Shown: positions 14,641-57,612 of the stretch, in pieces | Layout: every line of letters starts with the position of its first letter | How positions within the stretch are numbered: the stretch's first letter is position 1 | DNA from: Urechis unicinctus | Lineage: Eukaryota > Annelida > Polychaeta > Xenopneusta > Urechidae | Reading direction: 5' to 3' | NCBI GenBank assembly: GCA_034190875.2 | Contig: CM067353.1 | Coordinates: forward strand, 33,819,175-33,883,174 | Length of the DNA stretch: 64,000 nucleotides | Program-made: the position numbers and the translations under genes | The notes under the pieces: model-generated | The model's database searches: none | The model's input: the letters and a program-made list of their open reading frames with translations, nothing else | What the model was told of the DNA's origin: nothing

Positions 14641-14649
14641 ACACCGTGG

Positions 14650-15951: not shown

Positions 15952-16062
15952 CAAGAATACATAGGACCAGTACCAGGAATACATAGAACTACCTAGGAAT
16001 ACCTAGGACTATTCAGGAATACCTGGAGCCTGTACCAGGAATACCGGGGACTACCCAGGAAT
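15945..16062. repeat. Short tandem repeat of CAGGAATAC-type units
   Basis: About seven imperfect copies of an 11-20 base unit built on AGGAATAC(A/C)TAGGAC occur in a row inside E1, directly after the long degraded frame. The unit is frame-disrupting and looks non-coding. It resembles a minisatellite within the element. Confidence 0.6.
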
Positions 16063-16121
16063 GCCCATTGGAGCAATATGCATATACACACATATGTACC
16101 ACAACATGCTACATGCCAACG

Positions 16122-16349
16122 AGCAATGTGGAACAAATACAGGAAATACGCGATCGGCGGGGAAAGATCCCAGCCGTAGAAGCAAAGAAGCGTTATGTAT
16201 AGGATCTGGCCATCTTTGCAATATATGGAAAGAGGAGAGTGCGCAGGAAGCAAAGCTTCAACCCGGAGTGCACCAGGAAGGGCAGCTACTGCCCCTCCAA
16301 CCCCAAGACCTCTCAGGCCAAGAGTTGGTACCGCTGGCAGCCCATCTAG
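16122..16349 (+). pseudogene. Basic protein-like fragment in E1
   Basis: In a different forward frame from the fragment upstream, a run with one in-frame stop (about 16,188) reads as a charged, protein-like segment. It includes RDRRGKIPAVEAKKR and then a cysteine-containing basic stretch (GKRRVRRKQSFNPECTRKG), and it ends at a stop near 16,347. This frame looks more protein-like than the longer overlapping open frames at 16,061 and 16,195. It may be the end of the element protein or a second small protein. Family not recognised. Confidence 0.3.
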
Positions 16350-17067
16350 ACTCTGGATCCACCTACAGAAAGATGCACTTGTCCCCATATATAGAAACAG
16401 TGTTGTGGGACGAGGTGCAGCCATGCCACAGGCTACAATCCTCTCCAGAGCCGAGGAGGAGCTTCCTCCCGACATCCCGTCCCGAGGACATGGTTGTTTC
16501 TGTGGGTGGGGCACATATAACGTTGTTGCGTCTATCCACAGCTTGTTTACCAGAGAGCTTGTAATACATATATGGCAGGGGTATGTGAGAGGGCTGCATA
16601 GTTTTATCTTGTTTATATGTCGCTGTAGGTTGGGAGTTCTCCCAAATACTCGACGACATTGGTTGCATTCGATTTCAGTTTTTGTTCACTACCTCCAAAA
16701 GTTTGCTCTCTTTCTACCTTTTCTATCTACGTGCGACATGGCGGTCTCGATTGTTTTGCGCACAAGCCTATCTATTTGTAGAAGTATGTTGGCCGGTGGC
16801 GTTGGGGATTATCCTGGGCTGTATATATGCATGTGGGGATTCGCCAATTGGGCTATATATTTGGCGTCTTGTGTTTGTACTTCCAGAAGAGCGGCATTTT
16901 CATCCTGTGTACCAGGCAATAGAAGATTCATTGGAGCTTCGCTGAGGTTGTCGCTGGCTGGCGTGCTGGGTTGTTGGCCGGGTTGTTGGGTGGCTGACTG
17001 TTGCTGTTTCTGTGCTATTGGCTGGGTTGATGGCTGGCCTACTGTGTCGTGGAAGCTTTGTGGTGGC

Positions 17068-17105
17068 GTGGGGCCTCTTGTGTTTGGGACGGTGGTTGGA
17101 AAAAG
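17068..17105. repeat. Right terminal inverted repeat of E1
   Basis: The sequence running from GTGGGGCCTCTTGTG through GGGACGGTGGTTGG is the reverse complement, with few differences, of the left end of E2 at 24,051-24,090. The E2 right end (24,889-24,917) carries the inner part of the same repeat but stops at CCTCTT. Confidence 0.7.
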
Positions 17106-17188
17106 AGTAGCTATAACTTTAGTAGCTCCTGCCTTATTGACACTCCTATAAGTTTACTGGTAAATTATAATGGCAGAGTCGGGCCCGC

Positions 17189-17513
<325 letters not shown>

Positions 17514-38194: not shown

Positions 38195-40923
<2,729 letters not shown>

Positions 40924-40925
40924 TG

Positions 40926-40947
40926 AAACTCACAAGGCTGTTGGGTC
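40926..40947. repeat. Left terminal inverted repeat candidate
   Basis: AAACTC and TTGGGTC separated by nine bases, immediately inside the TA tract. The same two blocks with the same spacing occur in inverted orientation at 57,516-57,537. Confidence 0.4.
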
Positions 40948-40973
40948 TATAAATTAATACGAGGTTATTGGGG

Positions 40974-41201
40974 GACCTCTATTAACCGCATAAGCTGTTG
41001 CAATTATGTTTAATCAATCCCCTTAATTGCTTCATCGTTGACCTACGTATACGTGTATATATATGGAGATAACCTACGCAAAAGCAGATATTCGGCTTGC
41101 CGTTTAGACATTTGTCTTGGGTCTAGACCCAACAAAATAATTGGGTCCGGACCCAATAACATAAACTGAATATATACGGTATGAATATCCATTTTGTTCA
41201 T
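40974..41201. repeat. Left subterminal repeat, copy 1
   Basis: About 228 bases starting GACCTCTATTAACCGCATAA and ending near CCATTTTGTTCATT, repeated in direct orientation at 41,419-41,648 (spacing 445). It contains two palindromes close together, TTGGGTCTAGACCCAA (near 41,119) and ATTGGGTCCGGACCCAAT (near 41,141). Such clustered palindromes are what a DNA-binding recombinase or transposase could recognise; that role is inference. Confidence 0.75.
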
Positions 41202-41418
41202 TTAGATTTTATTTAAAAGTAGATATCACCGCCGATACTCCGCACTTAATGCGAATTTGACCAACGCCCATATACAACCAATACATTAAATTGCGCATGA
41301 GTGGAATCGGATTGATAATTGTTTGCTGGGTCCGTTGCATTTATATGCAAAATGAATTCATGCCATATTCAATCTTACTGGCTTTTCGTAGTGGAACTCA
41401 TAAGAAGACGAAGTCATC

Positions 41419-41648
41419 GACCTCTATTAACCGCATAAGCTGTTGCAATCATGTATTATCAATTCACGTTATTTGCTTCATCGTTGACCTTCGTATACGT
41501 GTATATATATGGAGATAATCTACGCAAAAGAAGATATTTGGCTTGTCGTTTAAACAATTGTCTTGGGTCTATACCCAACAAAATAATTGGGTCCGGACCC
41601 AATTACATAAAAGGAATATATCCGGTATAATTATCCATTTTGTTCATT
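41419..41648. repeat. Left subterminal repeat, copy 2
   Basis: Second direct copy of the 40,974-41,201 segment. The perfect palindrome ATTGGGTCCGGACCCAAT is kept (near 41,587). The first palindrome has one change in its centre (TTGGGTCTATACCCAA). Confidence 0.75.
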
Positions 41649-42560
41649 ATATTGCTCTCCATGATCGTTTTAGAGTGAACATTTGTGCCTCATAGAGTTT
41701 GACAAGTGACCTGTTCTTTTAAACTAAGAACAAGTTTGAAAGGGTTTGGGAGTGGGGGGGTGGGGGTGGTCGGCTGTCGTAACATGACGATAGAACTGAT
41801 AGAACAGGCGAATGCACGGAGTATTGTAAACAAAATGTTCCAAATGGAGGCAATAAGTTATTCCAGATCACCAGAAGTAGTTGCAATAGCTGATAGGAAT
41901 ATACCAAATTCTGAAATCAAGCTAACTAATGAAGTTAATAGTCAATTTGACGGCTCAACAATATAGTCTAGAATGCTATCAACAGGGAGAAATAGCTATG
42001 GAAAAGGTTAAGAACGCCTTGGCTTTCTTCGAACCCTTATAGTTCATAGAGATCAGCAACAATATGTAAAAATAGAAAATTTGAAGCAAGCGTTTGAAAA
42101 CAACGTAGAAACCAAATCAAAACGAACCTAAAGGCATTTACTGCTTTGCACGTTTAAAACTAAGAATCAAGGAAACTATTCGACCCCTAAATTAACAGAC
42201 CCATATAGTTCCATATGATCACACGATAATGGTATTTGTTTACCAGACCCCGAAATTCCACACGTTGGCGATTAAATATATGCCACAGGGCTACAAAATG
42301 GCCGTTTTGAGTCCTACGGAGCCCGTGCGGGCTTTAAATTCGCTCTGCCACTCGGCCACAAACGCCTCAATATGACTTGCTTGAGCAATTATCGACTTAT
42401 TTGTGTTGTAGTGTACGCCTATGGAAGGCTTTGGTTGCACTAAATATACTCGTAGGCATTAGCAAATATGGCATTTAATTATGTGTACATATTACTCCAA
42501 TGACCATAACATTATCATACGCTTCCCAAGCCCTTGACCACGCAAGTGATTTCGATGAAC
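41649..42560. other. Non-coding stretch between left end and gene
   Basis: No convincing coding frame; the 86-codon forward frame at 41,706-41,966 begins in a G-rich run and has no recognisable motif. Near 42,290-42,375, read on the minus strand, TGGCCGAGTGGCAGAGCG resembles the A box of a tRNA-derived promoter, but no matching B box or tRNA fold is visible, so I do not call a tRNA gene. Confidence 0.4.
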
Positions 42561-42574
42561 AAAAATTATCAGGG

Positions 42575-42580
42575 TTTATT
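42575..42580 (-). promoter_or_regulatory. Candidate polyadenylation signal
   Basis: AATAAA on the minus strand, 30 bases beyond the stop codon of the large gene (stop at 42,613-42,611). Position and sequence fit a metazoan cleavage/polyadenylation signal with a very short 3' UTR. This is not proof of use. Confidence 0.4.
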
Positions 42581-42610
42581 CAAGAAAACCTTGCGAACAT
42601 ATGCAATAAA

Positions 42611-42804
42611 TCATGTAGTGCATTTGCCATGTTTCAAATTGTTGATTTTAACCCGTATCTGTGCAAAGGTCCTTCCTGGCAGTAAGTGTGACACCTTCTG
42701 CAAGTCTGCATTATGGACAGATGCTCGCGCATTAAAATGATCCCTAATGACACATGTCTCCTGCTTAGTCCACTTCCTCCGTTTCTTGTCCGTGCCTTCG
42801 CCGT
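42611..42804 (-). CDS. Exon 16: C-terminal Myb/SANT-like domain and stop
   Basis: Acceptor CAG at 42,807-42,805. The exon reads DGEGTDKKRRKWTKQETCVI, then DHFNARASVHNADLQKVSHL and LPGRTFAQIRVKINNLKHGK, ending with a stop at 42,613-42,611. The Trp in the first helix, the spacing, and the LPGRT-x2-QI-x-x-KI recognition-type helix fit a Myb/SANT-like DNA-binding fold. Such a domain at the end of a recombinase-like protein could give sequence-specific DNA contact. Confidence 0.7.
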
Positions 42805-45800
42805 CTGTAACACGAAGTTAGTATCAATAGTATATTACCTTCACACTACACGTCAAAATTCATGTAATTTGATACTGTTTAAAAGTTTCTGAAATAGTCT
42901 TAAAACAGTTTCAGTAAATACCTAACTTATACTTGGAGGTATTGACCTTTAAGGAAGTCGTCCCATGCAATGGTTGACTGAATGGTCATTTGCGATGAAA
43001 CGCATTTGGAAGATAACAGTCATTAGGCAAACAACTAAGACAATTACAATACTGTACCTTTCATGTCACATTTAGTCTTCCTCTTGCGGTGCGCGAGCAG
43101 CTGCCATGATTCTGTAACCAATTAAGTTAATATTGTTGAGGGTGTAGTTGATTCAAAACAGTACGGTATCTGACATGGAGCAATATTATGCAAATTCCTC
43201 AGACAGAGAAACAATCATTCTTTTTATAAGGCAGTAAATATAGTATCGTTTTAGACATGTCTCATCAATAAAATTAGACACTCTGAGTTTTATAATATTA
43301 GCATACCTCTGTCAATATCTTCCTGTTCTTCATCACGGACTTCATATTCTTCTACTGCTTTCGCATCATCATCAACTGAACAAAATTTAGTAGCGGTCAG
43401 GTCATTTGAACACATAAAATTATTGACATTAATGCCTTTGGTGCTTAAATATCAAGACCTGGAACATTTACGCCAAATTGTGGATCAATAAATACCCCCA
43501 ACTGCTTGTGTACTATATACTAGTTATTTATCAGCAAGTAATTATTATCAATTGGGTATCATTGACGTAACCTGTAAATCACTGTAATATGTTGCATTTA
43601 TTTTTTTTTAAATAATCAAATGAGCATTATTCGTTTTGTTGCTGTTGTAAGATTTATACGGTACATTGGATAACATGTTTTCAGTTAATACATATTCCGG
43701 CTAGTTAGAGCATTTTCGGATCAAGCAAATCATTACTACATACCATCATCAGATGAATTACCGCTGTCTTCATTACGGTCATCAACATCATTTTCCTCAA
43801 TACCAGGGAGCTCTACAAAAAGTAAATTAACCAACATTTCAAAAACAACATAACACCATCATCCATATAAACAAAAATTATATTACAGTTAATAATAGTT
43901 ATAAAAATGAAAAACATTAAACAAATAATATATAAAATTGATTGTTTGAAGGCGTTTGATAAATACCTTCAACAGCAATATCCTCTAACCTCTTCCCCTG
44001 CCAGTGATTAACCATCCCCTTGTCGACAGCCAACAAGAGTTGGGAAACCTGTTAACACAAATATAGTAAGAGGCTTTGAACTTAGTGAACATAATTATCA
44101 ATCGGTTATACCATGACAGTTCACACCAAAATTCAATACCACTCTATAAAAATGGTTATAAGTGCGAGGATATGGTCACAATTTCAATATACATTGGAGT
44201 TTCTCTGAGGACAATACCTATCCTTTGAGGTACTACAAACCTTAGTAAGTTCTATGGTTGAATGAGGAAGGCGGTAGTACTCCTTGTGTGTTTTCACATC
44301 ATGACCCAAGTGAGTGGCTAAGCACTCCACTTCCTTTGGTGTCATATCTAAAATCTGAATGATTATAACAGTAGGATCTCAAATAAATATGCAGCGGTAC
44401 CATTGTACTAAAACAAACTGATTTCTCCATGATGACAATCTGAAACACAACTAGTTATAGCCACGCTTCTAAACATGAAACATACTGCGTTAAACTTCAA
44501 AACAATTACCTGTGACACAGTAGTAATATATTTCCGAAGGTTTCCGGAACTTATTCTTTCAGGATGTTTCAGTCCAGGACACTTTTGGGCAAATTCCCTC
44601 AGTTCTGCGCTGCCACTAAGAGGTGTGTCGGAGTTTGCTCGTGCAAATATGTACTGGTTGCTCTCGGCAATACCCACAAGATGCCTGCTTGCATTCAGGG
44701 TGTTGATGGCTTTGACTGAATCTGGGGGGAATAGGACATACGCTTCGATGTTCTTTCTTGACTTGCCAGCTGCTATCATCATGTCCATTCTGAAAATCAA
44801 ATTTGATCAAAAGTTTAATGCAAATAAATATAGATGTAGTTGCACTAGTTTTAGAATATGGCATATTTACAGACCGATCAAAATATTTTACATAAAGAAA
44901 CTACCTGCTTGCTATCAGTTTATCAGTTGGGGACATCGCCATTGCAAATTCTCCAGTAATTTGTTCTGCCCAAGAAGGACGGCTATTATAGTCTGCAACT
45001 TTCAGGTCTTTTACTTCAGCTCGGCGTCGCTTGTTGAAGGTTATCAGCCTACACAGTGTCAACTTGGCTAGCCGGGTCCAATTACTGACACATGGTGCCT
45101 CCTGAAGATGCTCATTCGTCTGCACGATTTCGTCCATGATGAAGTTCCGGTAGGCCACAAGATCTTCAGTGAGAGGAATAGTTCGAATTGCTTCTCTCTT
45201 CTGTTTGTTAATGAGCTTGACACTCACGGAATTAACCCGACAATTCCACTCGCTCTCGAAAAGTTTCTCAAAATTCATAGCCTCTTGTTGCTTCTCATGG
45301 TCATTGCAACGGATAGCTTGGCCAATCTTGATTTGTATGACATGACCGAAAATACTGCCAATATATATTTACTAAGCATGGGAGCTGGAGTTTCTTTTTC
45401 TATGGACATACCTTTTGCACTTTTTTGACAAGAAAATCAAAATAGTCTGGCTTGATCAATTTATCGAGATTGATCATGGGCTTCACTTTTCGTGCCTCGA
45501 ATACTAGAAGACCTAGTGTTCTGGACCCTTGGGCTACTCGATGCATGTCGTTAACCTTCTGGATTTCTTTGGGACCAAGAGATTCCACTCGCAATGCTGC
45601 ATACCGTTTGATGAGTTCGTCATTCATTACGGTTTGCTTCACGGTATCGTCTTGCATCCTTTTTAACATATCACCAACGAGTTGTTCGTGGTCATCAAGC
45701 ATTGCACTAAGCAACAAATGCTTGCCTCTGCGGACAGCATTCTTCGAGATATTTTGGTTTTCATTTTCCCTTTGTCATCATCTTCATCATTATGTTCTTG

Positions 45801-48800
45801 AGGCTGTTCTTTTCCCTGGGCCAATCTCTTTTTGTTTTCAAACTTCCACACAGCACAATTTCTGTGATGATGCCAAAGTGTACTCTTCAAGATGAACTTA
45901 AAGCAATATTCACAAGGAAGGTACTGGTCCGGATTGTGCTCTGGAGCTTCCAATGATCCTCTTCTTCCAACCACTATGCAACCAACACCAGATTTAAGGA
46001 CCTGCATATTATGCTTGAAGTTTCCTTCATTAGCCAGTTTTTCCAGTTCTACTAGCCTCTCTTCAGAACGCTTTGGTAACAAAGCAATTTTCATCACTCC
46101 CAGGCTCTCTCTATGGACATTCAATAAATGCCTTGAGATTTTGCTTTTGATGCATTTGAGACAGAATGTACAGAAGTTACATTTATCATACACCTGTTTG
46201 CATCCTTCCTGAACCTTTCTTTTTTTGAATAGAGCAGTTGCTCCATTTTGTTCTTGATGAAGGGTTAATTGAGATGTGGTGTCTGAAGCACTCAGGTCTG
46301 GCTCCGTCACTTGAAACTCTTGAACCCTCATATCACCAATGTCATCTGAGTAATGTAGACTTGAACCAGTCGTTATTCCTTGGTTGATGAGCTGATTGCC
46401 TTTCTGTACATGATATTCTTTTTCATTCACTCCATTGTGTTCATGCAGAAGGGTCAATTGAACTGTAGTGTCTGAGGCACTCAAGTCTGGCGCTGTCACT
46501 TGAAGCTCTTGAACCATCATATCACCAATGTCTTCTGAGTAATGTAGACTTGAACCAGTCGCCATGCCTTGGTTGATGAGCTGATTGTCGTTCAGTACAT
46601 GATGTTCTGTTTCATTCACTCCATTGTTTTTATGCAGAAGGGGCAATTGAACTGTAGTGTCTGAGGCACTCAAGTCTGGCGCTGTCACTTGAAGCTCTTG
46701 AACCATTATATCACCAATGTCATCTGAGTAATGTAGACTTGAACCAGTCGCCATGCCTTGGTTGATGAGCTGATTGTCGTTCAGTACATGATGTTCTGTT
46801 TCATTTACTCCATTTTGTTCATGCAGAAGGGGCAATTGAACTGTAGTTTCTGAGTCACTCAAGTCTGGCGCTGTCACTTGAAGCTCTTGAACCATCATAT
46901 CACCAATGTCATCTGAGTAATGTAGATTTGAACCAGTCGCCATGCCTTGATTGATGAGCTGATTGTCTTCTTGAATTGCTTGAACGTCTAAGCCATTTGG
47001 GTAATGCAAACGCGCTTCAGTCGCTTTTCCATGTTTGATGAGTTGATTGCCTTTCAGTAGAGGACGGTCTGTTTTCGTCATTCCATTTAGGTCTTGCAGA
47101 AGGGACAATAGAAATGGAGTGATTGAGGCACTCAGGTGAGGCTGTATCACTTGAAGCTCTTGAACCATTAAGTCATATGGGTAATGCGGACTCGATGGTG
47201 TTGCCATTCCTTGGTTGATGAGCTGATTATGGTCTTGCAGAAGGGGCAATTGAACTGTAGTGCCTGAGACACTCAGGTCTGGCTCTGTCACATGTAGCTC
47301 TTGAACCATTGTGTCAACTTGGTATTGCAATGTTGATTCGGTCGCAATTACTTGGTTGATCGGCTGATTGCCTTTCAGTGCTAGATGTTCTGTTAAAGTC
47401 ATTCCATTCTGTTCTTGCAGAAGGGGCAATTGAGCTGATGAGTCCAAGGCATTAAGGTCTGGCTCTGTCACATGATGCTCTTTGAACCACTGTGTCAACT
47501 GGGTATTGCAGTGTCGATGGCGTCACAATTCCTAGGCTGATCGGCTGATTGCCTTTTAGTACAGGACGTTCTGTTACAGTAACTCTATTTTGGTCTTGCA
47601 GAAGAGGATATTGAGCTGAAGTGTCCGAGGCATTCAGGTCAGGCTCTGTCATTGAAAGCTCTTGAACCATCATGTCATCTGAGTAATGCAGACTTGAATC
47701 CGTCGCCATTTCTTGGTTGATGAGCTGATTGCCTTTCATGATAAGACGTTCTGTTTCAGTCAAACCATTTTGGTCTTGCAGAAGGGGCAATTGAACTGTA
47801 GTGTCTGAGGCACTCAAGTCTGGCACTGTAAGTTGAAGCTCTTGAACCATCATATCACCAATGTTATCTGAGTAATGTAGACTTGAACCAGTCGCCATGC
47901 CTTGGTTGATGAGCTGATTGTCGTTCAGTACATGATGCTCTGTTTCATTTACTCTATTGTTTTCATGCAGAAGGAGCAATTGAACTGTAGTGTCTGAGTC
48001 ACTCAAGTCTGGCTCTGTTACTTGAAGCTCTTGAACTATCATGTCTTCTGAGTAATGCAGACTTGAACCAATCGCCATGCCTTGATTGATGTGTTGATTG
48101 TCTTTCAGTACATGATGCTCTGTTTCATTTACTCCATTGTTTTCATGTAGAAAGGGCAATTGAACTATAGTGTATGAGTCACTCAAGTCTGGCTCTGTTA
48201 CTTGAGGCTCTTGAACCATCAAGTCTCCTGAGTAATGCAGACTTGAATCATTCGCCATTCCTAGATTGATGAGCTGATTGTCCTTCTGTACATGATATTC
48301 TTTTTCATTCACTCCATTGTGTTCATGCAGAAGGGTTAATTGAACTTTAGTGTCTGAGGCACTCAAGTCTGGTGCTGTCACTTGAAGCTCTTGAACCCTC
48401 ATATCACCAATGTCATCTGAGTAATGTAGACTTGAACCAGTCGCCATGCCTTGGTTGATGAGCTGATTGTCGTTCAGTACATTATGTTTTGTTTCATTCA
48501 CTCCATTGTTTACATGCAGAAGGGGCAATTGAACTGTAGTGTCTGAGGCACTCAGGTCTGGCGCTGTCTCTTGAACCATCATGTCATCTGTGTAATGTAG
48601 ACTTGAACCAGTCGTCATTCCTTGGTTGATGAGCTGATTGTCTTTCAGTTCATGATGTTCTGTTTCATTCAACCCATTGTTTTCATGCAGAAGGGGCAAT
48701 TGAACTGTAGTGTCTGAGTCACTCATGTCTGGCGCTGTCTCTTGAACCATCATGTCATCTGAGTAATGTAGACTTGAACCAGTCGTCATTCCTTGGTTGA

Positions 48801-51481
48801 TGAGCTGATTGTCTTTCAGTTCATGATGTTCTGTTTCATTTACTCCATTGTTTTCATGCAGAAGGGTCAATTGAACTGTAGTGTCTGGGTCACTCAGGTC
48901 TGGTTCCGTCATTGGAAGCTCTTGAACCGTTGTGTCAACTGGGTATTGCAGAGTTGATTCTATTGAAATTACCTGGTTGATAGTCTGATTGCCTTTCAGT
49001 GCAAGTTGTTCTGTTTCAGTCATTCCATTTTGTTCTTGCAGAAGGAGCAATTGAGCTGATGTGTTAAAGGCATTCACACCTGGCTCTGTCACATGATGCG
49101 CTTTAACCACTGCGTCAACTGGGCATTGCAGTGACGATTCGGTCGCAATTCCTTGGTTGATCGCCTGATTGTTTTTCTGTGCAGGATGTTCTGTTTTAGT
49201 CATTTCATTTTGGTCTTGCAGAAGGGGCAATTGGGCTGAAGTGTCTGAGGCACTCAGATCTGCATCTGCCCTAATATGTTTAACCATCGAAACTGGAGTA
49301 CAATCATGGCCAACATGTTTAGGAAGGTGACTGTTTCCTTCCCGATCGGTATATGCTGGAATAGGCTGTTTCCCTGTGTGGAATGAAGGGAATGCCGAAT
49401 GGCTAGGACATTTGCATTACATTTACCACCACAAATAAAACTCACATCAGATTACAGGATGACGAATTTGTCCATGGGAAAGTTTAAATTTAAAAAGCAT
49501 TCAGTAAAGTTTACGCACCTGTATTAGTAACCAAATCGTCTCTCTGCCGCGCCAACTTTGCCTCACCATATACAGTTTCATATTCACCTCTTAATCGAAC
49601 CAGTGACTGACGGCTTGAAGAAGTGATGTAATCTATCACACAAAGGTCAATTTATCAATTACACTAATGATAAAGGTAAGATTGGTGCTGTATAGTGAAA
49701 GGGAGGAAAGTAATGAGACACTTGATGCTATTAAGTCTACAAAATTGTAATATACAATTATGTTCTTGGATTGTAGGATGTTAGCTTGCTTTATAACAAA
49801 ACGCGCCACCAAAGTTTAAAAGGCGACCGACGGACTCCATAAGAATGGTATATGATAAACTCTGGCAAAAATGGTTCGGAATATTATGACATATAACATA
49901 ACAAAGCGTATTAAATGTTTTATATATCATAGACAGATGAGAGACCATAACACAAAAACAGCAGGTTAGTAAGTCCGGAATTATAAAAAAGGTCATAAGC
50001 GAAATAGATACGCATCTTGTTCACACTGACAAAACAACATGAATACAATGTTTATAATGGTATTCTTATGTAATAAGTTACCTAAACCTGAGCTGAATGT
50101 CTTTGTTTCATCAAAAAACGTTTTATCTTGCAAGACGACACTTGTTCACTAGGAATAAGTTGTATTTAATTATTATTATAAATTTCTAAAATACAATACA
50201 CATGCACAGTTAAAATTAAATTGAAAAATAATCAGGTTTTGAGGAATAATTTATCAACACCTCAACACAGACAGAACCATTAGGTAAAATACTTACATGT
50301 TACCCTCCTTGTCTAGGTATCGCACAGTCGTGTACTTTCCTTTGTTAGATGTGAACAATATCACTGCAGGCCACCAAAGCTTGGGTAACCACTTGCACCA
50401 AATAATTTCCCCTGCTGAAATATGTCACATTTTGTATGTAACCATGCATGCTGAGTACGCTTCACAACAAAGTATTTTCCGAATCCAAATACTATACAGA
50501 TACTTAGACTGCATAACAATCTTCAAACTCTTATGTACTACTGTGAGCACATAAGCACCTAGTACGAAAAATAGTTATCTTATGCTTGGGAAAAATTAAA
50601 AAATTATGGTACTTGAACCTCACATCTTAATTTTTTGAGATGAGGTTTGAAGGTCTTTTTCGATCGAACTGAAGCCCCAGCAGCATTGGAATCATAACTG
50701 AAACAAGAAGCAGGCCACAATAGACAAAGTTACAAATTACAGTAGTCAGACAATAAAAAGCTACTGAAAGCTTGCTTACCATAAAGGAGACTCAGGTGGA
50801 TACTCATATCTAAATGTTTTGCAGCTGATTGTTATAAAGTCTTTGTGATTGATTGTGGTGGAATCTTCAATAATTTCACCATTCAAGATGGACACACCTT
50901 CTATGTTTGAAAGAAAGGCCTGTAACAGTAACACAATTTTAAACAGCTGTGTCAAAATTATTTAGAATAAATGTGTCGCATGTGCTATATTGACAAAAAC
51001 AGGTATGAATATATCTAGCCATGTAGAGAGTAGTTATTGGATTCGTTGAAACAAAAAACTTAGTGACAACATGCTGTAAGAATTTAATGATTTTGAAATA
51101 CAAAGCGGTACAACATTCAAACAGTGAGAGATCTAAAATTGCCTTACATCATTTGCACTCAAAATACTTACTGTTCCTTCATTGTCAACATCTATCCTTG
51201 CATGCGAGGAACGCACACTGGGTATATTTATAACAATGTTGCAGTCATCCCTATTTCTGCAAAAATAATCATTACTTGCAAGAAAACCTTGCCAACAAAT
51301 AATACAATCAATGTGAGATAATTCTTAAAAATGTAGTGATTACAGTACACAAATGTGAATTGATTCCAACATATTTGTCAGATAACATTAAGTACCGTCC
51401 AAAAACACAGCTCTTGTTGAACAAAGGAAAGCAGGCACCATCTATTCCTCCATTTTGGATGACAATGACTTCACCGTGCAT
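42611..51481 (-). CDS. FHA-PWWP-repeat-zinc finger-tyrosine recombinase-Myb protein, 16 coding exons
   Basis: Coding exons on the minus strand: 51481-51396, 51256-51172, 50919-50780, 50697-50624, 50414-50297, 50140-50082, 49632-49519, 49292-45412, 45326 (or 45354)-44905, 44789-44510, 44354-44241, 44048-43967, 43812-43744, 43375-43307, 43111-43058, 42804-42611. Junctions use GT-AG and all agree in phase, except that 45412/45326 needs an unusual acceptor. The predicted product is about 1,940 residues: FHA, PWWP, about 17 tandem repeats, C2H2 and C2HC fingers, tyrosine-recombinase-like domain, charged linker, Myb/SANT-like end. Two frame breaks lie in the 3.9 kb exon (47,481-47,483 and between 45,667 and 45,775). 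The domain set implies a nuclear, chromatin- and DNA-binding protein. It could be a recombinase of the surrounding element, a host gene built from one, or a decaying copy. I know of no named protein with this combination. Confidence 0.75.
43058..43812 (-). CDS. Exons 13-15: acidic then basic linker
   Basis: Exons 43,812-43,744 and 43,375-43,307 (both 69 bases) and 43,111-43,058 (54 bases), all joined in phase 1. They code strongly acidic segments (LPGIEENDVDDRNEDSGNSS, VDDDAKAVEEYEVRDEEQED) followed by the basic HRKRKTKCDMK. Symmetric exons of equal phase can be skipped without frame loss. The linker separates the recombinase-like and Myb-like domains. Confidence 0.65.
43967..45326 (-). CDS. 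Exons 9-12: tyrosine-recombinase-like domain
   Basis: Exons 45,326-44,905, 44,789-44,510, 44,354-44,241 and 44,048-43,967. Visible landmarks in order: TFNKRRRAEV, fitting the first catalytic Arg box; GLKHPERISSGNLRKYITT, with the second Arg; HLGHDVKTHKEYYRLP, with the LGH histidine and the candidate nucleophilic Tyr; and the LLLAVDKG helix after it. Tyrosine recombinases cut and rejoin DNA through a 3'-phosphotyrosine link. The usual His of the H-x-x-R box seems to be Ser here (SGNLR), so activity is uncertain. The exon 8/9 junction is unclear: acceptor CAG at 45,357-45,355 would add family-like residues but shifts frame; the AAG at 45,329-45,327 keeps it. Confidence 0.8.
45412..49292 (-). 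CDS. Exon 8: 3.9 kb exon with tandem repeats and two zinc fingers
   Basis: Acceptor CTCCAG at 49,295-49,293, donor AAG/GTATGT at 45,412. It codes about 17 repeats, then FKKRKV, a C2H2 finger, a C2HC finger, and then the N-terminal part of the recombinase region (from about HLLLSAMLDDHEQL to FDFLVKKVQK). Two breaks split it into three open pieces. At 47,481-47,483 there are three T's where every other repeat has two, a one-base insertion. Between 45,667 and 45,775 the frame shifts again with no obvious intron. Each open piece is protein-like, so the breaks are recent or are sequence errors. Confidence 0.75.
45667..45775 (-). other. Second frame break, between zinc fingers and recombinase region
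   Basis: The frame with the zinc fingers runs on past an acidic HNDEDDDKG run to a stop at 45,663. The family-like sequence SKNAVRRGKHLLLSAML is in another frame that is open only after 45,775. No normal intron reconciles them simply; a donor at GTTTGA (near 45,842) with acceptor CCGCAG (near 45,729) would fit the phases but would delete family-like sequence. A one-base change in the A/G-rich stretch 45,758-45,775 is the simplest reading. Confidence 0.6.
45855..45914 (-). other. C2HC zinc finger
   Basis: C-x2-C-x10-H-x4-C in CEYCFKFILKSTLWHHHRNC. Pairs of such fingers ahead of a tyrosine-recombinase-like domain are, to my knowledge, typical of a family of uncharacterised proteins in fish and invertebrates. 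Confidence 0.7.
46113..46172 (-). other. C2H2 zinc finger
   Basis: C-x2-C-x10-H-x4-H in the segment CTFCLKCIKSKISRHLLNVH. A basic FKKRKV stretch precedes it by about 15 residues. Part of exon 8. Confidence 0.7.
46240..49290 (-). repeat. Coding tandem repeat, about 17 units of 171-189 bases
   Basis: Each unit codes 57-63 residues with consensus elements NQLINQGMATGSSLHYS, then VQEL(Q/H)VTEPDLSASD, TTVQLPLLHENNGVNETEHH. Two units (12 and 13 from the start, near 46,970-47,210) are divergent, and one is short. Several neighbours (for example 46,390-46,920 and 48,400-48,500) are almost identical in DNA, showing recent expansion or conversion. Residues are mostly polar and acidic with few aromatics, so the region is probably extended. 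I do not recognise the repeat as a named domain. Confidence 0.9.
47481..47483 (-). other. One-base insertion breaking the repeat frame
   Basis: On the plus strand this repeat has CTCTTTGAACC, while the equivalent site in the other units has CTCTTGAACC. The extra base splits what is otherwise one open repeat array into two frames overlapping at 47,452-47,498. A homopolymer-length sequencing error would look the same. Confidence 0.85.
49519..49632 (-). CDS. Exon 7: charged, probably helical segment
   Basis: A phase 1-1 exon of 114 bases coding 37 residues, including RLRGEYETVYGEAKLARQRD, likely an alpha helix following PWWP. Acceptor GATAG, donor GTGCGT. It joins exon 6 and the long repeat exon without frame conflict, which is the main evidence that the FHA-PWWP part and the recombinase part belong to one gene. 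Confidence 0.6.
49640..50081 (-). other. Intron 6 of the large gene
   Basis: AT-rich; begins GTAACT at 50,081 and ends GATAG at 49,633. No nested gene or element is evident. Confidence 0.55.
50082..50414 (-). CDS. Exons 5-6: PWWP domain
   Basis: Exon 5 (50,414-50,297) reads GEIIWCKWLPKLWWPAVIL, matching the PWWP opening (G-[DE]-[IL]-[IV]-W-x-K, then the [PK]-x-WWPA signature), and continues to YTTVRYLDKEGN. Exon 6 (50,140-50,082) adds VVLQDKTFFDETKTF, the last strand and start of the helical part. The acceptor for exon 6 is AACAAG, selected because it keeps the frame; a better-looking TAG eight bases upstream would introduce a stop. PWWP domains bind methylated histone tails and DNA. The aromatic cage cannot be fully judged by eye. 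Confidence 0.75.
50624..50697 (-). CDS. Exon 4: basic linker between FHA and PWWP
   Basis: Short exon (24 codons plus split codons) coding a lysine/arginine-rich linker, VRSKKTFKPHLKKLR. The acceptor is TTTCAG. The donor GTGAGG is chosen over nearby alternatives because it gives the phase the PWWP exon needs. The basic run could act as a nuclear localisation signal. Confidence 0.6.
50780..50919 (-). CDS. Exon 3: second half of the FHA domain
   Basis: Acceptor TTACAG, donor GTAAGC. The 46 codons read AFLSNIEGVSILNGEIIED, then a stretch ending ITISCKTFRYEYPPES. The Asn-Gly turn (LNGE), the HKDFI segment (equivalent to the family's HGD-I) and the FRYE strand match the end of FHA domains and again look closest to Ki-67. 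It joins exon 2 in phase 0 and exon 4 in phase 2. FHA domains bind phosphothreonine peptides; whether this one does is unknown. Confidence 0.75.
51172..51481 (-). CDS. Exons 1-2: start and first half of the FHA domain
   Basis: The ATG at 51,481 opens MHGEVIVIQNGGIDGACFPL and then FGR, the family's Gly-Arg after strand 2. Exon 2 (51,256-51,172) continues with NRDDCNIVINIPSVRSSHAR. The pattern resembles the FHA domain of Ki-67: a start close to the domain, G-x-DG, F-PL, FGR, D-C-I, a conserved His. At the position where most FHA domains have the phosphothreonine-contacting Ser three residues before His, this protein appears to have Arg. A likely 5' UTR acceptor CAG lies at 51,503-51,501, so an untranslated first exon probably lies upstream. 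Donors are GTACTT (weak) and GTAAGT (strong). Confidence 0.75.
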
Positions 51482-51503
51482 TTTGTAACACTTTGCTCTA
51501 CTG

Positions 51504-51788
51504 AAAATGTGTCAAGAAATACAGCGTTAGGACAATATAAATCTAGAAGTGATATACACTGCTCTTTCATATCGTTTGCATTTAATTATAAGTTTGGTCG
51601 AACCCTGGCTCATATAAGGTAAGGTAAGGTAACTATAGGGCTTAACGGTACACAAACACTCATGTGTTATATGGTGCCAAACAAAGTTAATAGATAAGAT
51701 TGGCCTGATTAAGCAGCCGCCTTCTATGATAAATGCAAATGGAGATAGAAAAGAAAAAGATAAAAATAGAAACGATTATCCTAAGGCA
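51504..51788. other. Region upstream of the first coding exon
   Basis: Probably intron or 5' UTR of the large gene. It contains a short AAGGT triplicate (about 51,620-51,632) that may be the head of the SINE-like insertion downstream. No promoter motif can be assigned. Confidence 0.35.
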
Positions 51789-51914
51789 AGTCGCCACTAG
51801 CCGATTGACTGAATAAGGCCATTCAAACTTCTTAGTCGCCTCTTATGACATGCAGGAGGATACAATTGGCCTATTCTCCCCCCGGGCCAACAGGGTGGGG
51901 GGGGGGGGGGGGGG
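51789..51914 (+). mobile_element. SINE-like 3' tail ending in poly-G
   Basis: The stretch AGTCGCCTCTTATGACATGC (51,834-51,853) through CTATTCTCCCCCCGGGCC, ending in CAGGGT and 18 G's, closely resembles the conserved tail found in many short retroelements of molluscs and other marine invertebrates (family memory, not a search). Upstream boundaries are unclear. It supports an invertebrate origin. Confidence 0.55.
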
Positions 51915-52934
51915 CTCATGTAGGGATACAATCTATACGATGCCTCAAAGACAAATGGTGATTTAACATCTATATATTATTCGGTCTAATATCCAGACAT
52001 ACGATGATAATCACATCATTCCGAAACTCTAAAAATAGGCGGGCTAACATAGCAATACACCGTTGGGGCTCGCAAATATGAAATAAAATGAACCAAGTAA
52101 AAATATTCAGAAAAAAATGGCCAGAAATATTGCAAGAAAATATTTGAATATGTGTTGAAGATAACGAATTTATAAGAAGTAATGTGATATCCAAGTAACG
52201 GTACAGAAACCACTCAATAATGTTAATGCTAGCAGAATGGGGCCCCGTCACAAGTACATAGCAATTGAATGCATATAGAGGTCCAAAAGCTATTGGGCCA
52301 ATCAATATATAAAATGAGTTATTTTGTGCCTTTTTATGCTTATTTGAATCCTACAAATGTATATACTGGGAATGACACAAGTGAATAATAAATGTGGCCA
52401 CCTAATACCTTCAAGTTACAACTATATATAAATGGAGTACACATACAAAGAGAAAATTGGGTCTCCACAAGATGCGCTCAATGTTGTTTGTGTCATATAA
52501 ATATCTTAATATGGCTATAACCTAATAGTTACTAAATGTTATGTTAGATGCATTTGGTGAATATACGAAATCAGGCCACAATTATCCGTTCTGCCTCAAA
52601 AGAATCAATGTTACCAAAATAAAATCATTGACCCATCATATTGGGTCTGTGCAAAATTAAGGTTAAAAACAATGCAAAGTACCGGTTCATGTATGTTAGC
52701 ATACAGTTATATGGTGTATGCAGGTGTTATTCGGTTCTCAACATTAAGTCAAATATGTTAGCCGCTGCAGCCACTTGTACATGATTGTGTAACATGTCGT
52801 TCTCTTTTGCGCGCATTATCTATTCACCGCTTCTTCGTGAGCGTCGAATAGGTATGGAATAAGCCAGCCCGCACACAACTGGAAGCACATGTTATACATT
52901 TATAACTTTATAACTTGACCGATCAATAATGCCT
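51915..52934. other. Non-coding AT-rich stretch
   Basis: No supported gene. Single GGGTC and GACCC motifs occur near 52,460 and at 52,630-52,647 (GACCCATCATATTGGGTC, an imperfect inverted pair). Confidence 0.5.
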
Positions 52935-53882
52935 CAGTTACAAGAGACGCTACAGGCCCTGTACGGGCCAAGACACTGCAGGCCCATGCAGACCCGCACG
53001 GCGTGTCGCGCTGCTCAGTACATGGCCCGTGCGATTGTTTGAAAAAGTTTGTCCCGTACGGGCCCTGCACGGTTTTCTTATGGCTGCTCTACTGCTCTGC
53101 TAGTCCATTGTGTCCCCTCGACCCCCGCCCCCCCCCCCCCCCCACATGCTCCGAGAGCCCCGGCGCGGGTGCCGTGCGTGCAACATGCGACATTACTCAA
53201 AATGGGCTTGCCCCTTACAAGCTCCTTATTGTTTGTGCGTGTTTGATTTCCAACGTTTTGAATCTGGCAACCAACCAGGGCCCATCCTCCCATATCATCA
53301 CCATGGCACCAAACAAGGGGAAATCGATACCCAATAGAAGGAAACACGACGATGGGACAAAAGAGCGACATAAAGAAGCCGAGATAAACTTCGACCCCGA
53401 GCAGCCATCAGATGACGAAGATTTCGGCATGGCTAATAAAGTACCTCCACTGTCTGCTAACGTGGAAAATAAAATAGTCGAGCTCAATGAGGCTAACCCT
53501 TGTTAGTCAGGATTTCAGAGATAAAAGTTCGACCGGGTATATATATTACCCAAATAATCCGTACATGCACCTGCACTCGTGGGTCTTCACCTCGCCCCGC
53601 CAGGGCCCCAAACGATCCCCATGCAACTGATCGTACATGTGTTCCCAACCCCGTGCAACATCCACACATATAAACCCGCATATAAGGCCCGTGTAGTATA
53701 TGTACGGCTATTTCGACCTCGCGGCCAAATCTCGTAAGAACCCGTAGAACGCCCGCAGACCAACCATAAAGCATATGACCACAAATTTGTCCGAGGGTGA
53801 TTTCATACGGGCTTATTATGGGCCACGGCTCTCAAAGCCGTACTCTGCCCGTAAACAGGGGCCCGTATGTCTCATGTGACTG
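52935..53882. mobile_element. GC-rich inverted-repeat element with ACGGGC motifs
   Basis: The left end CAGTTACAAGAGAC followed by GCTACAGGCCCTGTACGGG (52,935-52,968) pairs with the reverse complement of the right end CAGTCACATGAGAC followed by ATACGGGCCCCTGTTTACGGG (53,882-53,846). The interior is much richer in G+C than its flanks, carries repeated CCCGTACGGGC-type palindromes near 53,050, a poly-C run (53,128-53,143) and a small ORF. No clear target duplication is visible. Confidence 0.5.
53303..53506 (+). CDS. Small acidic ORF inside the GC-rich element
   Basis: 67 codons from an ATG in a good initiation context (CACCATGG). The frame is open further upstream to 53,003, but that part crosses a poly-C run and looks non-coding. 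The product is hydrophilic, first basic (MAPNKGKS, RRKHDDGTKERHKE) then acidic (EQPSDDEDFG). It could be a first exon or a leftover of a transposon protein. Function unknown. Confidence 0.3.
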   Translation: MAPNKGKSIPNRRKHDDGTKERHKEAEINFDPEQPSDDEDFGMANKVPPLSANVENKIVELNEANPC

Positions 53883-54720
53883 TAGCACAGGACAATTCCC
53901 GTCGTGGAACTCAACTGGACCGTATTAATAAAGAAACTGAAGTCCGATAACCCCACTTTTAATCGTATTCATACTGAATCTTAAGCCTCATAGTGCTCAC
54001 TCTTAAAAAGCTGATTTAAATTCGCAAGCTGAAACTTAAGAACGGTTGGTCCAACGGTAATATTTCCAGCGAAATGCCTTCACAGATATGAAGAAGAATA
54101 TGTATGTTCTTAATATGAACCATAACATTATCAGCCGTTTGTTATTAACGACACAAATTTTTATCGGGATATTCAAATTAATTTCGCTGCAAGTTGTTTT
54201 CTTTAAAAAGCGGGGAACTTTTCACAAACAATCGGGTCGCATCGGACAGGGTGTTGATATAAAATTAGCGAGGTAGCTTGCAGTTGATTCGAATTAAGAA
54301 TGGTTTGTGAGATGATTATAGTAGGAGGGAGTTTCCATATGAATAAAGGAATTATTCACGGTTTGCCATGTTATAGTTAACTTCACAAATAATAACAACG
54401 GCGCCGAGATTCACATTTCGCATTGTTGAATATAATAAAAGCAGGCAGTCTATGAATCCACTTCATGCCCAAAAATCACCCCGTCAATGTCGTTTTTTTT
54501 TTGTGTAGCTATAAACACTCAATTTTATGCGTCAAAATCACGTCATAGACTAATGACGCGCAATGACCAAGTAACGCGCAAAATTCAGCAAAGAGTGTTT
54601 TTTATCCTCGCGGAGTTAAAATCTTATTTGTGCAAGCATAGTTGACGGAATTATTTCCCACTCGCGTGGATTAGTTGCAATTATATTGCCGATTATTAGA
54701 CCTTGTAAATGTGTAAATCG
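53883..54720. other. Non-coding AT-rich stretch
   Basis: No supported gene; small frames only. A T-rich run is seen near 54,492-54,501. Confidence 0.45.
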
Positions 54721-54721
54721 T

Positions 54722-54905
54722 CTCAAAGCAAACAATAGCTCTTGTTGTGGATAGCGTTGTGGCCATGTTCATGGGTAACCAGGTCGTAGCTCGGTGTGCT
54801 TTGGAATATGTTTAAAACAAACAATAGCTCTTCGTGCGGATAGCGTTGTGGTCATGTTCATGGATAACCATGCCGTAGCACGGTGTACTTTGGAATATGT
54901 GAAAG
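54722..54905. repeat. Tandem duplication of about 95 bases
   Basis: Two imperfect direct copies, each with AAACAATAGCTCTT, GGATAGCGTTGTGG, CATGTTCATGG and CTTTGGAATATGT in the same order (about 54,727-54,813 and 54,820-54,900). Confidence 0.8.
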
Positions 54906-56157
54906 TGAAACTCGTGGCCATTGGCTGAAGCATATAATATATCATACTCCAATGTACAGTCTGATTGAATAAAGGTGAGTGAATTATTCATAAACAACCG
55001 GTTTTAATGCTATTCCTTTTTGTTTTAACAAACTTTCATCTCCATTATATTTAACCGTCTGTCTAATGAACACATGATAACATATTTTTCCTTTTTCCTG
55101 TAACAAACAAACTGTGATTGTGGTGGTTTATGTGCCTCAGTAGTGTATATAACTAACTGTATAACGTTAACATACTGCTATGAAGATAAGCGACTTTGAA
55201 ACTTGTTTAATCATTGTCAAGGTCTTATGATCGTCATGTGACCTAGCATGCAGCCACACCGCGCGCGTGCTGTTGGTCCGGCGCATGAGGTATTCGCTTC
55301 AGTGCCTTCACCGCTGCAACGATTTCATTAATTAGTGTATTGCAATACCTTGCGTATCTTAAATGTGTATATGCTAATGTGTTGTGCGATAGTATATGCA
55401 ACCTTCATGCGTCGCGTCACAGCCGCCATGTGCCCGGCCCGTACTGCCCAGAAAACCTGTTATAGTTTTTCAAGCATTCCTACCATCCCAAACTAGCTTA
55501 ATGTCACAAATGACTCTAATCAATAATGAGATGGAGTGTTGCGATAACATATTTGCTCATGTTGAGATGGCCAAATGTAAAACAGGCTTGAGTTGCTAGA
55601 ATGTGAACCTGTCGAAATAGCCAGAACGCGCCGCGCAATTTCTTGGAAGAGGCATACCGTTCTTTGTCTACTTGCCGCTTAAACTTCCAGCGTTTCATTC
55701 GTCGTGTATTGCATAAAACTTGTTTTGCCACTTGATATATGGGTCACTGCCACACTGTTTGATTCGCCAAACTTTTCAATTTCTTGGCATGTATAAATAA
55801 TTCATAATAATTTTTTCAGTGAAACAATACCAGAACGTGTTTACGGAGTTGTCATGTTTTATCAGTGTTCGCTTGTACTAACTGAAGACGTACTCGGCAT
55901 AGTTTCTCTAATCAGACTTTCGCAATCAACACAACATAAATAAACCGAGTAGTGTTTTAACACATCCCAATGCACAGACAAGAAGTGCGGCTATCCAAGC
56001 CACATGCGTCAATGACACGCGCATTGTAACGACGCGCGCCGAGACCAATAACGCGCCCCCTTACATAACGTCCCGTTAGATTCAGATCGTTATATTGATG
56101 GCAATTTCTATTTGTGGCCCCTCCGTAGAAAGCTACGACGCACAGAAGCAGTTCAAA
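54906..56157. other. Non-coding stretch
   Basis: Short open frames on both strands near 55,396-55,731 and 55,957-56,190 have no recognisable motif and overlap each other antisense. A GCGCGC-containing spot lies at 55,260. No gene supported. Confidence 0.45.
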
Positions 56158-56323
56158 TGTGGCTGACAGGTCAAAACGTGTTAGACGCAATCAAGGTCTA
56201 ATTGTAGATGTTTTAACTATATGTGCTGTTGTGTCTGTAAAGATACTATTGAATGAAACAATAATTGATAACAATTTGATATAACAAACAATGATATTTC
56301 ATTCAGCTGTGTACCCTACAGCC
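56158..56323. repeat. Right subterminal repeat X, copy 1
   Basis: Starts ATGTGGCTGACAGG and ends near AGCTGTGTACCCTA. Direct copy at 56,594-56,758 (spacing about 436, close to the 445 spacing of the left-end repeat). Confidence 0.7.
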
Positions 56324-56367
56324 TTGACTGGAACCCCGTTGTCTGAGTGCAGGGACGCAGCTTACTT

Positions 56368-56580
56368 GATGAGAATCAAGTCATATCATATAATAGCATG
56401 GTGTTATTATTTCAAAGGGACCCAATACACGTGTGTAGAAAGAACGCTGATTTCGAGTAATCAGACAAATGCTACTTCAAATATGGAATATAGTTTGGGG
56501 GAAAAAACACTATTGGGTCCATGACCCAATAATCATCAAATCTCCAAACAGTCAGCCAGAGCCCCAATAGTTCGATAAGG
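56368..56580. repeat. Right subterminal repeat Y, copy 1
   Basis: From TGATGAGAATCA through AAAGGGACCCAATA, the palindromic ATTGGGTCCATGACCCAAT and CCCCAATAGTTCGA. A diverged direct copy lies at 57,218-57,500. Confidence 0.7.
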
Positions 56581-56593
56581 AATAATAACTAAG

Positions 56594-56758
56594 ATGTGGC
56601 TGACAGGGTCAAAAGTTAGTTAGACACTATCAGGGTCTAGTTGTGGATGTTTTAACTCTATGTACTGTTGCGTGTGTACACATTCAATTGTAAAAAAACA
56701 ATTGATAATACTTTGACGATTAACAAATGCCATTTCATACAGCTGTGTTCCCTATAAC
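56594..56758. repeat. Right subterminal repeat X, copy 2
   Basis: Diverged direct copy of 56,158-56,323, sharing ATGTGGCTGACAGG, GGATGTTTTAACT (one base different) and CAGCTGTGT in order. Confidence 0.65.
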
Positions 56759-57217
56759 ACCGTAAAATACACGACTTGGCAATGGTTAAAATACAAATGT
56801 AGGAGAAGTAAATATTAGGGAGGACAAGTAAAAGTTCCAAGGTCAGAAGCATTGCTGTGGAATCTTGACAATATTCTAAATTTGACAAAAACTGACATAT
56901 CTACTAAACAGCCTATCCCCTGACACTGATCAAACTTAGTGCATTATTGCCCTCACGCGTCGACCACATAACACACAGCAAACAGCTTACAGTAAACGAT
57001 ACAAACTTTATACCTGATATCTTATCAAAACCGGACTATATCTCCTACACAATCAAACTATAGCATTACATGCACGATAACATTAATGTAACAGCTTTTC
57101 ACTCACTGATTAGTAGGAATGCCGCAGCCTCTCGACACAAACCATGCCACGTGTGACTACTTATTAAACACATATATTGGGCCGTACTGTATATAACATA
57201 TTGGGTCTTTGATGCGC
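56759..57217. other. Non-coding spacer between X2 and Y2
   Basis: AT-rich with no gene. A lone ATTGGGTCT lies near 57,200. Confidence 0.45.
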
Positions 57218-57500
57218 TGATGAGAATCATGTCACATGACGCCAAGTTGGTTTGTGATTGGGTAACTTATATATATATATATAAATGTTTCTGCATTTGG
57301 CCAATAGATGTCGGTATAGCATGGTGTAGGTGTTTCAAAGGGACCCAATATACGTGTATTGAACGAATGCATATTTCGAGGATTCAGGCATATATTATTT
57401 CAAATACGGAAATTTTTATTGGGGAAAAAAAATTATTGGGTCCAAGACCCAATAATCAACAAATGACCCAACAGTCAATCGTAGCCCCAATAGTTCGAGT
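57218..57500. repeat. Right subterminal repeat Y, copy 2
   Basis: Shares TGATGAGAATCA, TAGCATGGTGT, TTTCAAAGGGACCCAATA, ATTGGGTCC-AA-GACCCAAT and CCCCAATAGTTCGA with Y copy 1. Extra GACCCAA motifs follow toward the right end (57,465 and 57,516). Confidence 0.7.
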
Positions 57501-57515
57501 ATGAATATCGACCAT

Positions 57516-57537
57516 GACCCAATACTTCGGCGAGTTT
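57516..57537. repeat. Right terminal inverted repeat candidate
   Basis: GACCCAA, nine bases, GAGTTT; the inverted counterpart of 40,926-40,947. TA repeat starts five bases further on. Confidence 0.4.
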
Positions 57538-57542
57538 AAAAC

Positions 57543-57573
<31 letters not shown>

Positions 57574-57612
57574 ATACATATATATGTATACATATACATA
57601 TACATATATATT
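57543..57612. repeat. TA4: short TA and TATACA microsatellite
   Basis: A 25-base TA run followed by TATACATA-type repeats and TTTCTATTTCC, the same tail that follows TA2 at 27,704-27,748. It marks the resumption of the array. Confidence 0.9.

Follow-up and report, generated by a model that had tools for sequence, protein, structure and literature searches.

Animal Cryptons are described without a C-terminal domain and without terminal repeats (Kojima & Jurka 2011, PMC3212892). A survey of tyrosine-recombinase (YR) elements that included two molluscs accepted one Crypton, in a cnidarian (PMC4157794). Endogenous nimaviruses of crustaceans carry C2H2-YRs specific for telomere repeats and related YRs specific for 28S rDNA; some of the C2H2-YRs have introns, and five of seven key residues were located by the authors (PMC10871703). 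Starship elements of fungi, with their DUF3435 "captain" YR, are large, and a circle has been proposed for them, which the source treats as an open question (PMC12506042).

The locus analyzed here lies in a stretch of 64,000 nucleotides of the annelid Urechis unicinctus (the window; C12:33,819,175-33,883,174), and the sequence searched with it was the 1.19-Gb genome (926 contigs). The window contains a mobile element of about 16.6 kb (40,923-57,542), with its gene on the minus strand and with ends common to dispersed copies. An earlier note on this DNA had described the span 42,611-51,481, which holds the gene but not the whole unit; it overlooked that the DNA is a mobile element, that the FHA domain comes from Ki-67 and that the window copy is damaged. 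In the genome search, the low end was found at at least 13 places and the high end at at least 11. A (TA)8+ tract lay no more than 20 bp away from 11 of the 13 low ends and 10 of the 11 high ends, against a background of 1.1% of 128,000 bases. The two low ends missing the tract (C8:1969 and C3:19069) were both still A/T-rich, and the high end at C4:61187776 was not in TA repeats. At the window copy, the (TA)n tracts occupy 40,806-40,922 at the low end and, partly interrupted, 57,543-57,611 at the high end. When 13 outer flanks, 7 from low and 6 from high ends, were compared after masking of A/T runs, they revealed no mutual similarity. Neither a circle nor an empty site was seen, and no target-site duplication was seen at the element ends, where (TA)n would hide one.

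The element is bounded by an imperfect 22-bp pair of terminal inverted repeats (TIRs), with one arm at 40,926-40,947 on the plus strand and the other at 57,516-57,537 on the minus strand, identical at 15/22 positions. The low subterminal region (40,941-41,648) contains direct repeats (40,974-41,202/41,419-41,648) and 8 TTGGGTC/GACCCAA sites, and the high subterminal region (56,157-57,522) contains 9 such sites and two pairs of direct repeats (56,157-56,318/56,594-56,754 and 56,393-56,584/57,316-57,507). Altogether 17 of the element's 20 sites were found within 1.3 kb of its ends, where 0.4 were expected; these sites lie partly inside the subterminal direct repeats and are not independent of each other. 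The results establish that the unit of 16.6 kb has many dispersed copies, which share its ends, are flanked by TA tracts and keep the introns, and that it holds one large recognisable gene. Elsewhere in the element, two 89-bp direct repeats at 54,725-54,900 had no coding content that we recognised, and a short interspersed repeat at 51,616-51,826 lies just 5' of the ATG, with similar pieces at several places of the C9 locus. Outside it, positions 14,001-17,200 of the window are GC-richer, and long open frames overlap there on both strands; a C2H2 match of the minus strand was weak (E 0.0064, below the cut-off). No Rfam families or tRNAs were found in the window.

The gene runs on the minus strand from an ATG at 51,481 to a stop at 42,611. 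The revised model has 14 exons, with GT-AG borders at 13/13 introns; the strand, the GT-AG introns and the phase agree with the earlier note, and its count of sixteen exons does not. The FHA domain is encoded by E1 (51,396-51,481, with the ATG), E2 (51,172-51,256) and E3 (50,780-50,919), which holds the FHA end, and is followed by a linker in E4 (50,624-50,697). A PWWP-like motif (GEIIWCKW..WWPAV), below the Pfam cut-off, is located in E5 (50,297-50,414), and the C-terminal part of this region in E6 (49,519-49,613), whose acceptor was picked by phase (49,589 also fits). The giant exon E7 (44,905-49,373) contains a tandem array (46,229-49,266), two C2H2/C2HC-like zinc-ligand clusters (45,780-46,250) and the first half of the recombinase, that is, its N-terminal part with the first catalytic Arg (NKRRRAE; 44,905-45,662). 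The catalytic Lys (AGKSRKN) and second Arg (GNLRK) are encoded by E8 (44,510-44,789), and the His (LGHD) and nucleophile Tyr (EYYRLP) by E9 (44,241-44,354). E10 (43,967-44,048), the acidic E11 (43,744-43,812) and E12 (43,307-43,375), and E13 (43,058-43,111) lead to E14 (42,611-42,804), which encodes a Myb/SANT-like C-terminus, below its cut-off, and the stop.

Codon phase is continuous from E1 into E7 and again from the end of E7 to E14, and is broken inside E7 of the window copy, where the frame breaks near 47.5, 45.8, 45.43 and 45.37 kb. The break inside the array might be read as a boundary between two adjacent genes, one of FHA, PWWP-like part and array and the other of zinc fingers and recombinase. 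We regard this reading as improbable, as the array and zinc fingers of the C5 copy form one open frame of 1000 aa, splice phases run unbroken from E1 into E7, order and orientation are constant in all six copies that have FHA, array and recombinase parts (window, C3, C5, C6, C7 and C16, the last part being present at least in part), and in C8 and C13 a deletion has removed the middle of the gene but left its first and last exons. The zinc fingers and recombinase likewise share one frame, of 465 aa in C3 and 540 aa in C16. E7 is predicted from these frames to be a single exon of 4.5 kb; the earlier count of sixteen probably includes junctions that are no introns, and some of these extra junctions probably reflect frame damage in the window copy. 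The proposal of one gene in this domain order, in contrast, is supported by the order seen at the six loci.

We further examined the origin of the FHA domain, which had been correctly recognised by the earlier note. It matched PF00498 with 32 bits (cut-off 20.7), and a comparison with PDB returned two human Ki-67 entries (E 6.4e-14 and 7.8e-14), the next distinct protein scoring 16.1 bits (E 0.055). The predicted FHA domain is specifically Ki-67-like. The host genome has a Ki-67-type gene at C10:3,664,505 downwards, away from the element, with an FHA domain, a KSVSFGP...LPPLTPLRKG motif, FTGLRELVQTP-type repeats and KPRGRRGAK-rich repeats; we take the motif, the repeats and the KPRGRRGAK-rich part to be the PP1 motif, repeats and LR region of Ki-67. 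Genome searches with PWWP, array and recombinase queries gave no match at this gene, and inspection of the element's frames by eye revealed no PP1-type motif, Ki-67 repeats or LR-type region. The FHA domains of the element and the host gene are 41% identical. Their first three introns lie at corresponding codons in 3/3 cases, with phases 2, 0 and 2 in both, including the splice site of E3. That three such introns arose independently is not credible, and we conclude that a piece of Ki-67 encoding the FHA domain was captured as genomic DNA, introns included. The identity of 41% implies that the capture is old or that the donor was another species. The element's FHA domain keeps GR and the core, is without the NPT of the Ki-67 loop, and has an altered VSxxH turn; with these changes its ligand may differ, and phosphothreonine binding may be altered.

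The long tandem repeats noticed earlier were confirmed as an array of approximately 16 units, mostly of 57-63 aa, with one of 47, one of 91 and a partial last unit. The units are acidic, with few K and R. All 46 array matches in the genome lie inside copies of the FHA-recombinase element. In repeat family D4 (17 copies), 15 of the 16 spacings are divisible by three, and the remaining one measures 181 bases. The other modules of the earlier description came out weaker. The PWWP-like part matched PF20884 and PF00855 with 15.0 and 14.0 bits (cut-offs 27.7 and 25.6), the Myb-like part matched PF00249 with 15.0 bits (cut-off 24.4), and both assignments are only plausible. The two zinc-ligand clusters are readable, though without a significant Pfam match. 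A chromatin-targeted recombinase, as suggested earlier, is a plausible description of the predicted protein.

The recombinase was identified through relatives in the same genome. It is 36% identical over 297 aa to family C, whose 616-aa open frame matches Phage_integrase (PF00589) at 6e-5 with 23.3 bits, below the curated cut-off of 27.1. In an alignment with families B, C and D, R110, K159 and R235 are invariant in 4/4 rows, and the H and Y are kept in the 3/3 rows that reach them, one row being too short; the HxxR histidine is absent from this alignment. We presume that these aligned residues have the corresponding catalytic roles. By homology, the predicted enzyme is a tyrosine recombinase with R-K-R-H-Y kept, and the earlier assignment was right. 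Searches beyond this genome gave no relatives: nothing significant was found for the window recombinase in Pfam (best FlaG, 0.11), including no match to DUF3504 or DUF3435; its profile gave 7 matches in PDB, none of them recombinases (best, designed SAKe proteins); hhalign gave no signal against the lambda, P1 Cre, P2 and HP1 enzymes; an IMG/VR scan yielded 26 pattern matches, none confirmed as relatives; and a family C query had no match in a phage collection. The mixed alignment A2 was unreliable. Family B (52% in the recombinase alignment) has the same zinc-finger-recombinase arrangement, and none of the 49 genome matches of the FHA-PWWP exons fell at its six best loci, within the detection limit of a best-candidate search. 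Zinc-finger/recombinase families with many genome matches, besides that of the element, include L042 (family C, with its open frame of 616 aa), L043 (open frame of 579 aa) and L041; long simple repeats are present near the gene in L041 and L042.

The 49 FHA-PWWP matches include the window and loci on C3, C5, C6, C7, C8, C9, C13 and C16, with weaker ones elsewhere, among them the host Ki-67 gene; matches fall on contigs C1-C17, and the 14 of these with a listed length measure 50-81 Mb. The window, with the array masked, was compared with nine fetched loci. Similarity to the copies spans introns and reaches far past the gene, with main-block identities of 94-99% for C3, C5, C8 and C16, 87-97% for C6 and 71-94% for C7, C13 and C9, and none for C10. 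Internal stretches are missing from C5, C6, C7, C8, C9 and C13, and part of the C5 locus beyond the low end reads N. The PWWP-like exon E5 is present in five of the six loci with the common domain order and lost from C6, and E8 is lost from C7. Two copies on C16 (C16:37815963 and C16:37826281) have the same orientation, lie 10.3 kb apart and share the same complex TA-rich flank; they look like a tandem duplication, or an integration beside an existing copy, and were counted as one event. At C3:19069701-19089673, two copies are apparently arranged tail to tail, with the high ends facing, as a palindrome.

None of the five copies read through (window, C3, C5, C7 and C16) is fully open. Lesions were found in all five, so no working copy is claimed. 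In two older copies, C7 and C9, exons are better kept than introns. Exons of C7 are 88-99% identical to those of the window (E3 75%, with a 27-base gap) versus 82-92% for introns, and exons of C9 80-96% versus 69-79%, while C13 showed no clear difference (exons 90-97%, introns 81-98%). Substitutions between the window and C7 gave pS 0.100 and pN 0.048 (Fisher p 2e-4, rounded counts). The dN/dS values were 0.46 for C7, 0.53 for C9, 0.70 for C13 (few sites), and 0.31 for C5 and 0.35 for C16, where the changes come mostly from one patch (45,437-45,662). Some segments alone, such as the zinc fingers compared with C7, show no selection difference. The patch, in the recombinase, is approximately 93-94% identical to C5 and C16, with neighbouring parts at about 99%, and may come from another sub-lineage, perhaps through gene conversion.

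Retained introns and purifying selection on exons would also suit a family of host genes that multiplied through segmental duplication and has a function in chromatin as a domesticated recombinase, and the C16 copies at 37.816 and 37.826 Mb, with their shared flank, fit such a family. However, the common ends lie inside otherwise unrelated flanks, in TA tracts and with TIRs, and the copies are partial, internally deleted and damaged, which makes a host family very improbable. A domesticated single-copy gene is ruled out by the dispersed copies with common ends, and the earlier suggestion of a domesticated derivative is not supported, in view of the same multi-copy element, with its shared ends in (TA)n, its internal deletions and its lack of an open copy among the five.

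The main rival reading concerns the enzyme that moves the unit. A DDE-type transposase encoded elsewhere could act in trans, with the YR gene as cargo. The short TIRs, clustered subterminal motifs and TA targets resemble those of cut-and-paste elements; TIRs and TA targets fit a DDE transposase too, which counts against the YR reading. Endogenous nimaviruses of sesarmid crabs enter (AT/TA)n via a Ginger2-like DDE enzyme, with 46-bp TIRs (PMC10871703). On the other side, the YR gene is the sole one recognised inside the element, and its exons are better conserved than its introns in C7 and C9. Among the ORFs of 60 or more aa at 51.5-58 kb, 23/25 were scanned for a second enzyme and none reached a Pfam cut-off, the best being Sid-5 (E 0.019, 15.6 bits against a cut-off of 27); the other two both span the high end. 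C7 and C13 lack the segment that holds the 53.3-kb ORF. We consider mobilisation by a DDE enzyme unlikely.

Taken together, we think it likely that the recombinase encoded by this gene belongs to a mobile element, a YR-type DNA transposon that is like animal Cryptons but structurally different. In our best reading it is a transposon with a C2H2-type tyrosine recombinase, (TA)n as its insertion target and an added Ki-67-type chromatin tether; we infer both the tethering and the movement by the element's own recombinase. In the proposed mechanism, the YR would excise the element as a circle, whose junction would consist of the inverted arms GACCCAATACTTCGGCGAGTTT / AAACTCACAAGGCTGTTGGGTC around a TA core. 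Recombination of this core with chromosomal (TA)n would leave TA on both sides. Such a route would explain the flanking TA tracts, the inverted arms and the lack of another recognisable enzyme. The C2H2 and Myb-like modules may bind the subterminal TTGGGTC repeats, and the Ki-67-type FHA and PWWP-like domains may hold the protein on (mitotic) chromatin, which could help to select targets or let the circle be inherited. We picture the acidic array as a flexible, multivalent linker whose number of units would drift. A more specific version, which we put forward tentatively and regard as rather doubtful, is a recombinase transposon that hitchhikes on mitosis: with a Ki-67 FHA, introns included, and a PWWP-like reader, and with the acidic array as a Ki-67-like brush between readers and enzyme, the circle would be held on mitotic chromosomes until the recombinase inserts it at (TA)n.

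If the preferred reading of a YR transposon holds, the element clearly illustrates how a DNA transposon can extend its enzyme with an identified host domain, here the Ki-67 FHA, taken up as genomic DNA; matching introns still reveal, within this genome, a gene related to the donor. The borrowing of mitotic-chromosome and chromatin readers by selfish DNA thereby becomes testable. The known range of animal YR elements would also widen with respect to size, domains and target (TA microsatellites), and the findings warn that a long multi-domain "chromatin" gene in such a genome can belong to a transposon.

Among known systems, CryptonA and CryptonI of animals resemble the element as DNA elements with a tyrosine recombinase and with no reverse transcriptase recognised. 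The element is multi-copy and has no reverse transcriptase in its gene or in the 23 scanned of its 25 further ORFs, as in a YR DNA transposon of Crypton type; a DIRS-, Ngaro- or PAT-type element was rejected, with no reverse transcriptase or RNase H domain in the ORFs scanned. However, it has C2H2, FHA, PWWP-like, array and Myb-like parts, TIRs and TA targets. The element would work like a Crypton but departs from the features described for those of animals, and it is therefore not filed as a Crypton. The nimaviral C2H2-YRs share a C2H2 domain with a YR and repeat-specific targets, but they sit in large viral genomes, whereas no viral gene was recognised in the element and its target is (TA)n. 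Starships are large, as is the element, but they are fungal, with the captain at the 5' edge and many cargo genes. Ki-67 (MKI67) is alike in FHA sequence, in its N-terminal position and in the intron positions and phases of the host gene, whereas the FHA of the element is fused to PWWP-like, array and YR parts. No FHA-PWWP-recombinase fusion protein was found in the open-access literature by title and abstract. Chromodomain-bearing integrases of Ty3/gypsy elements carry a histone-reading module on an integration enzyme; they are a functional analogy to the element, which differs from them in both enzyme class and reader domains.
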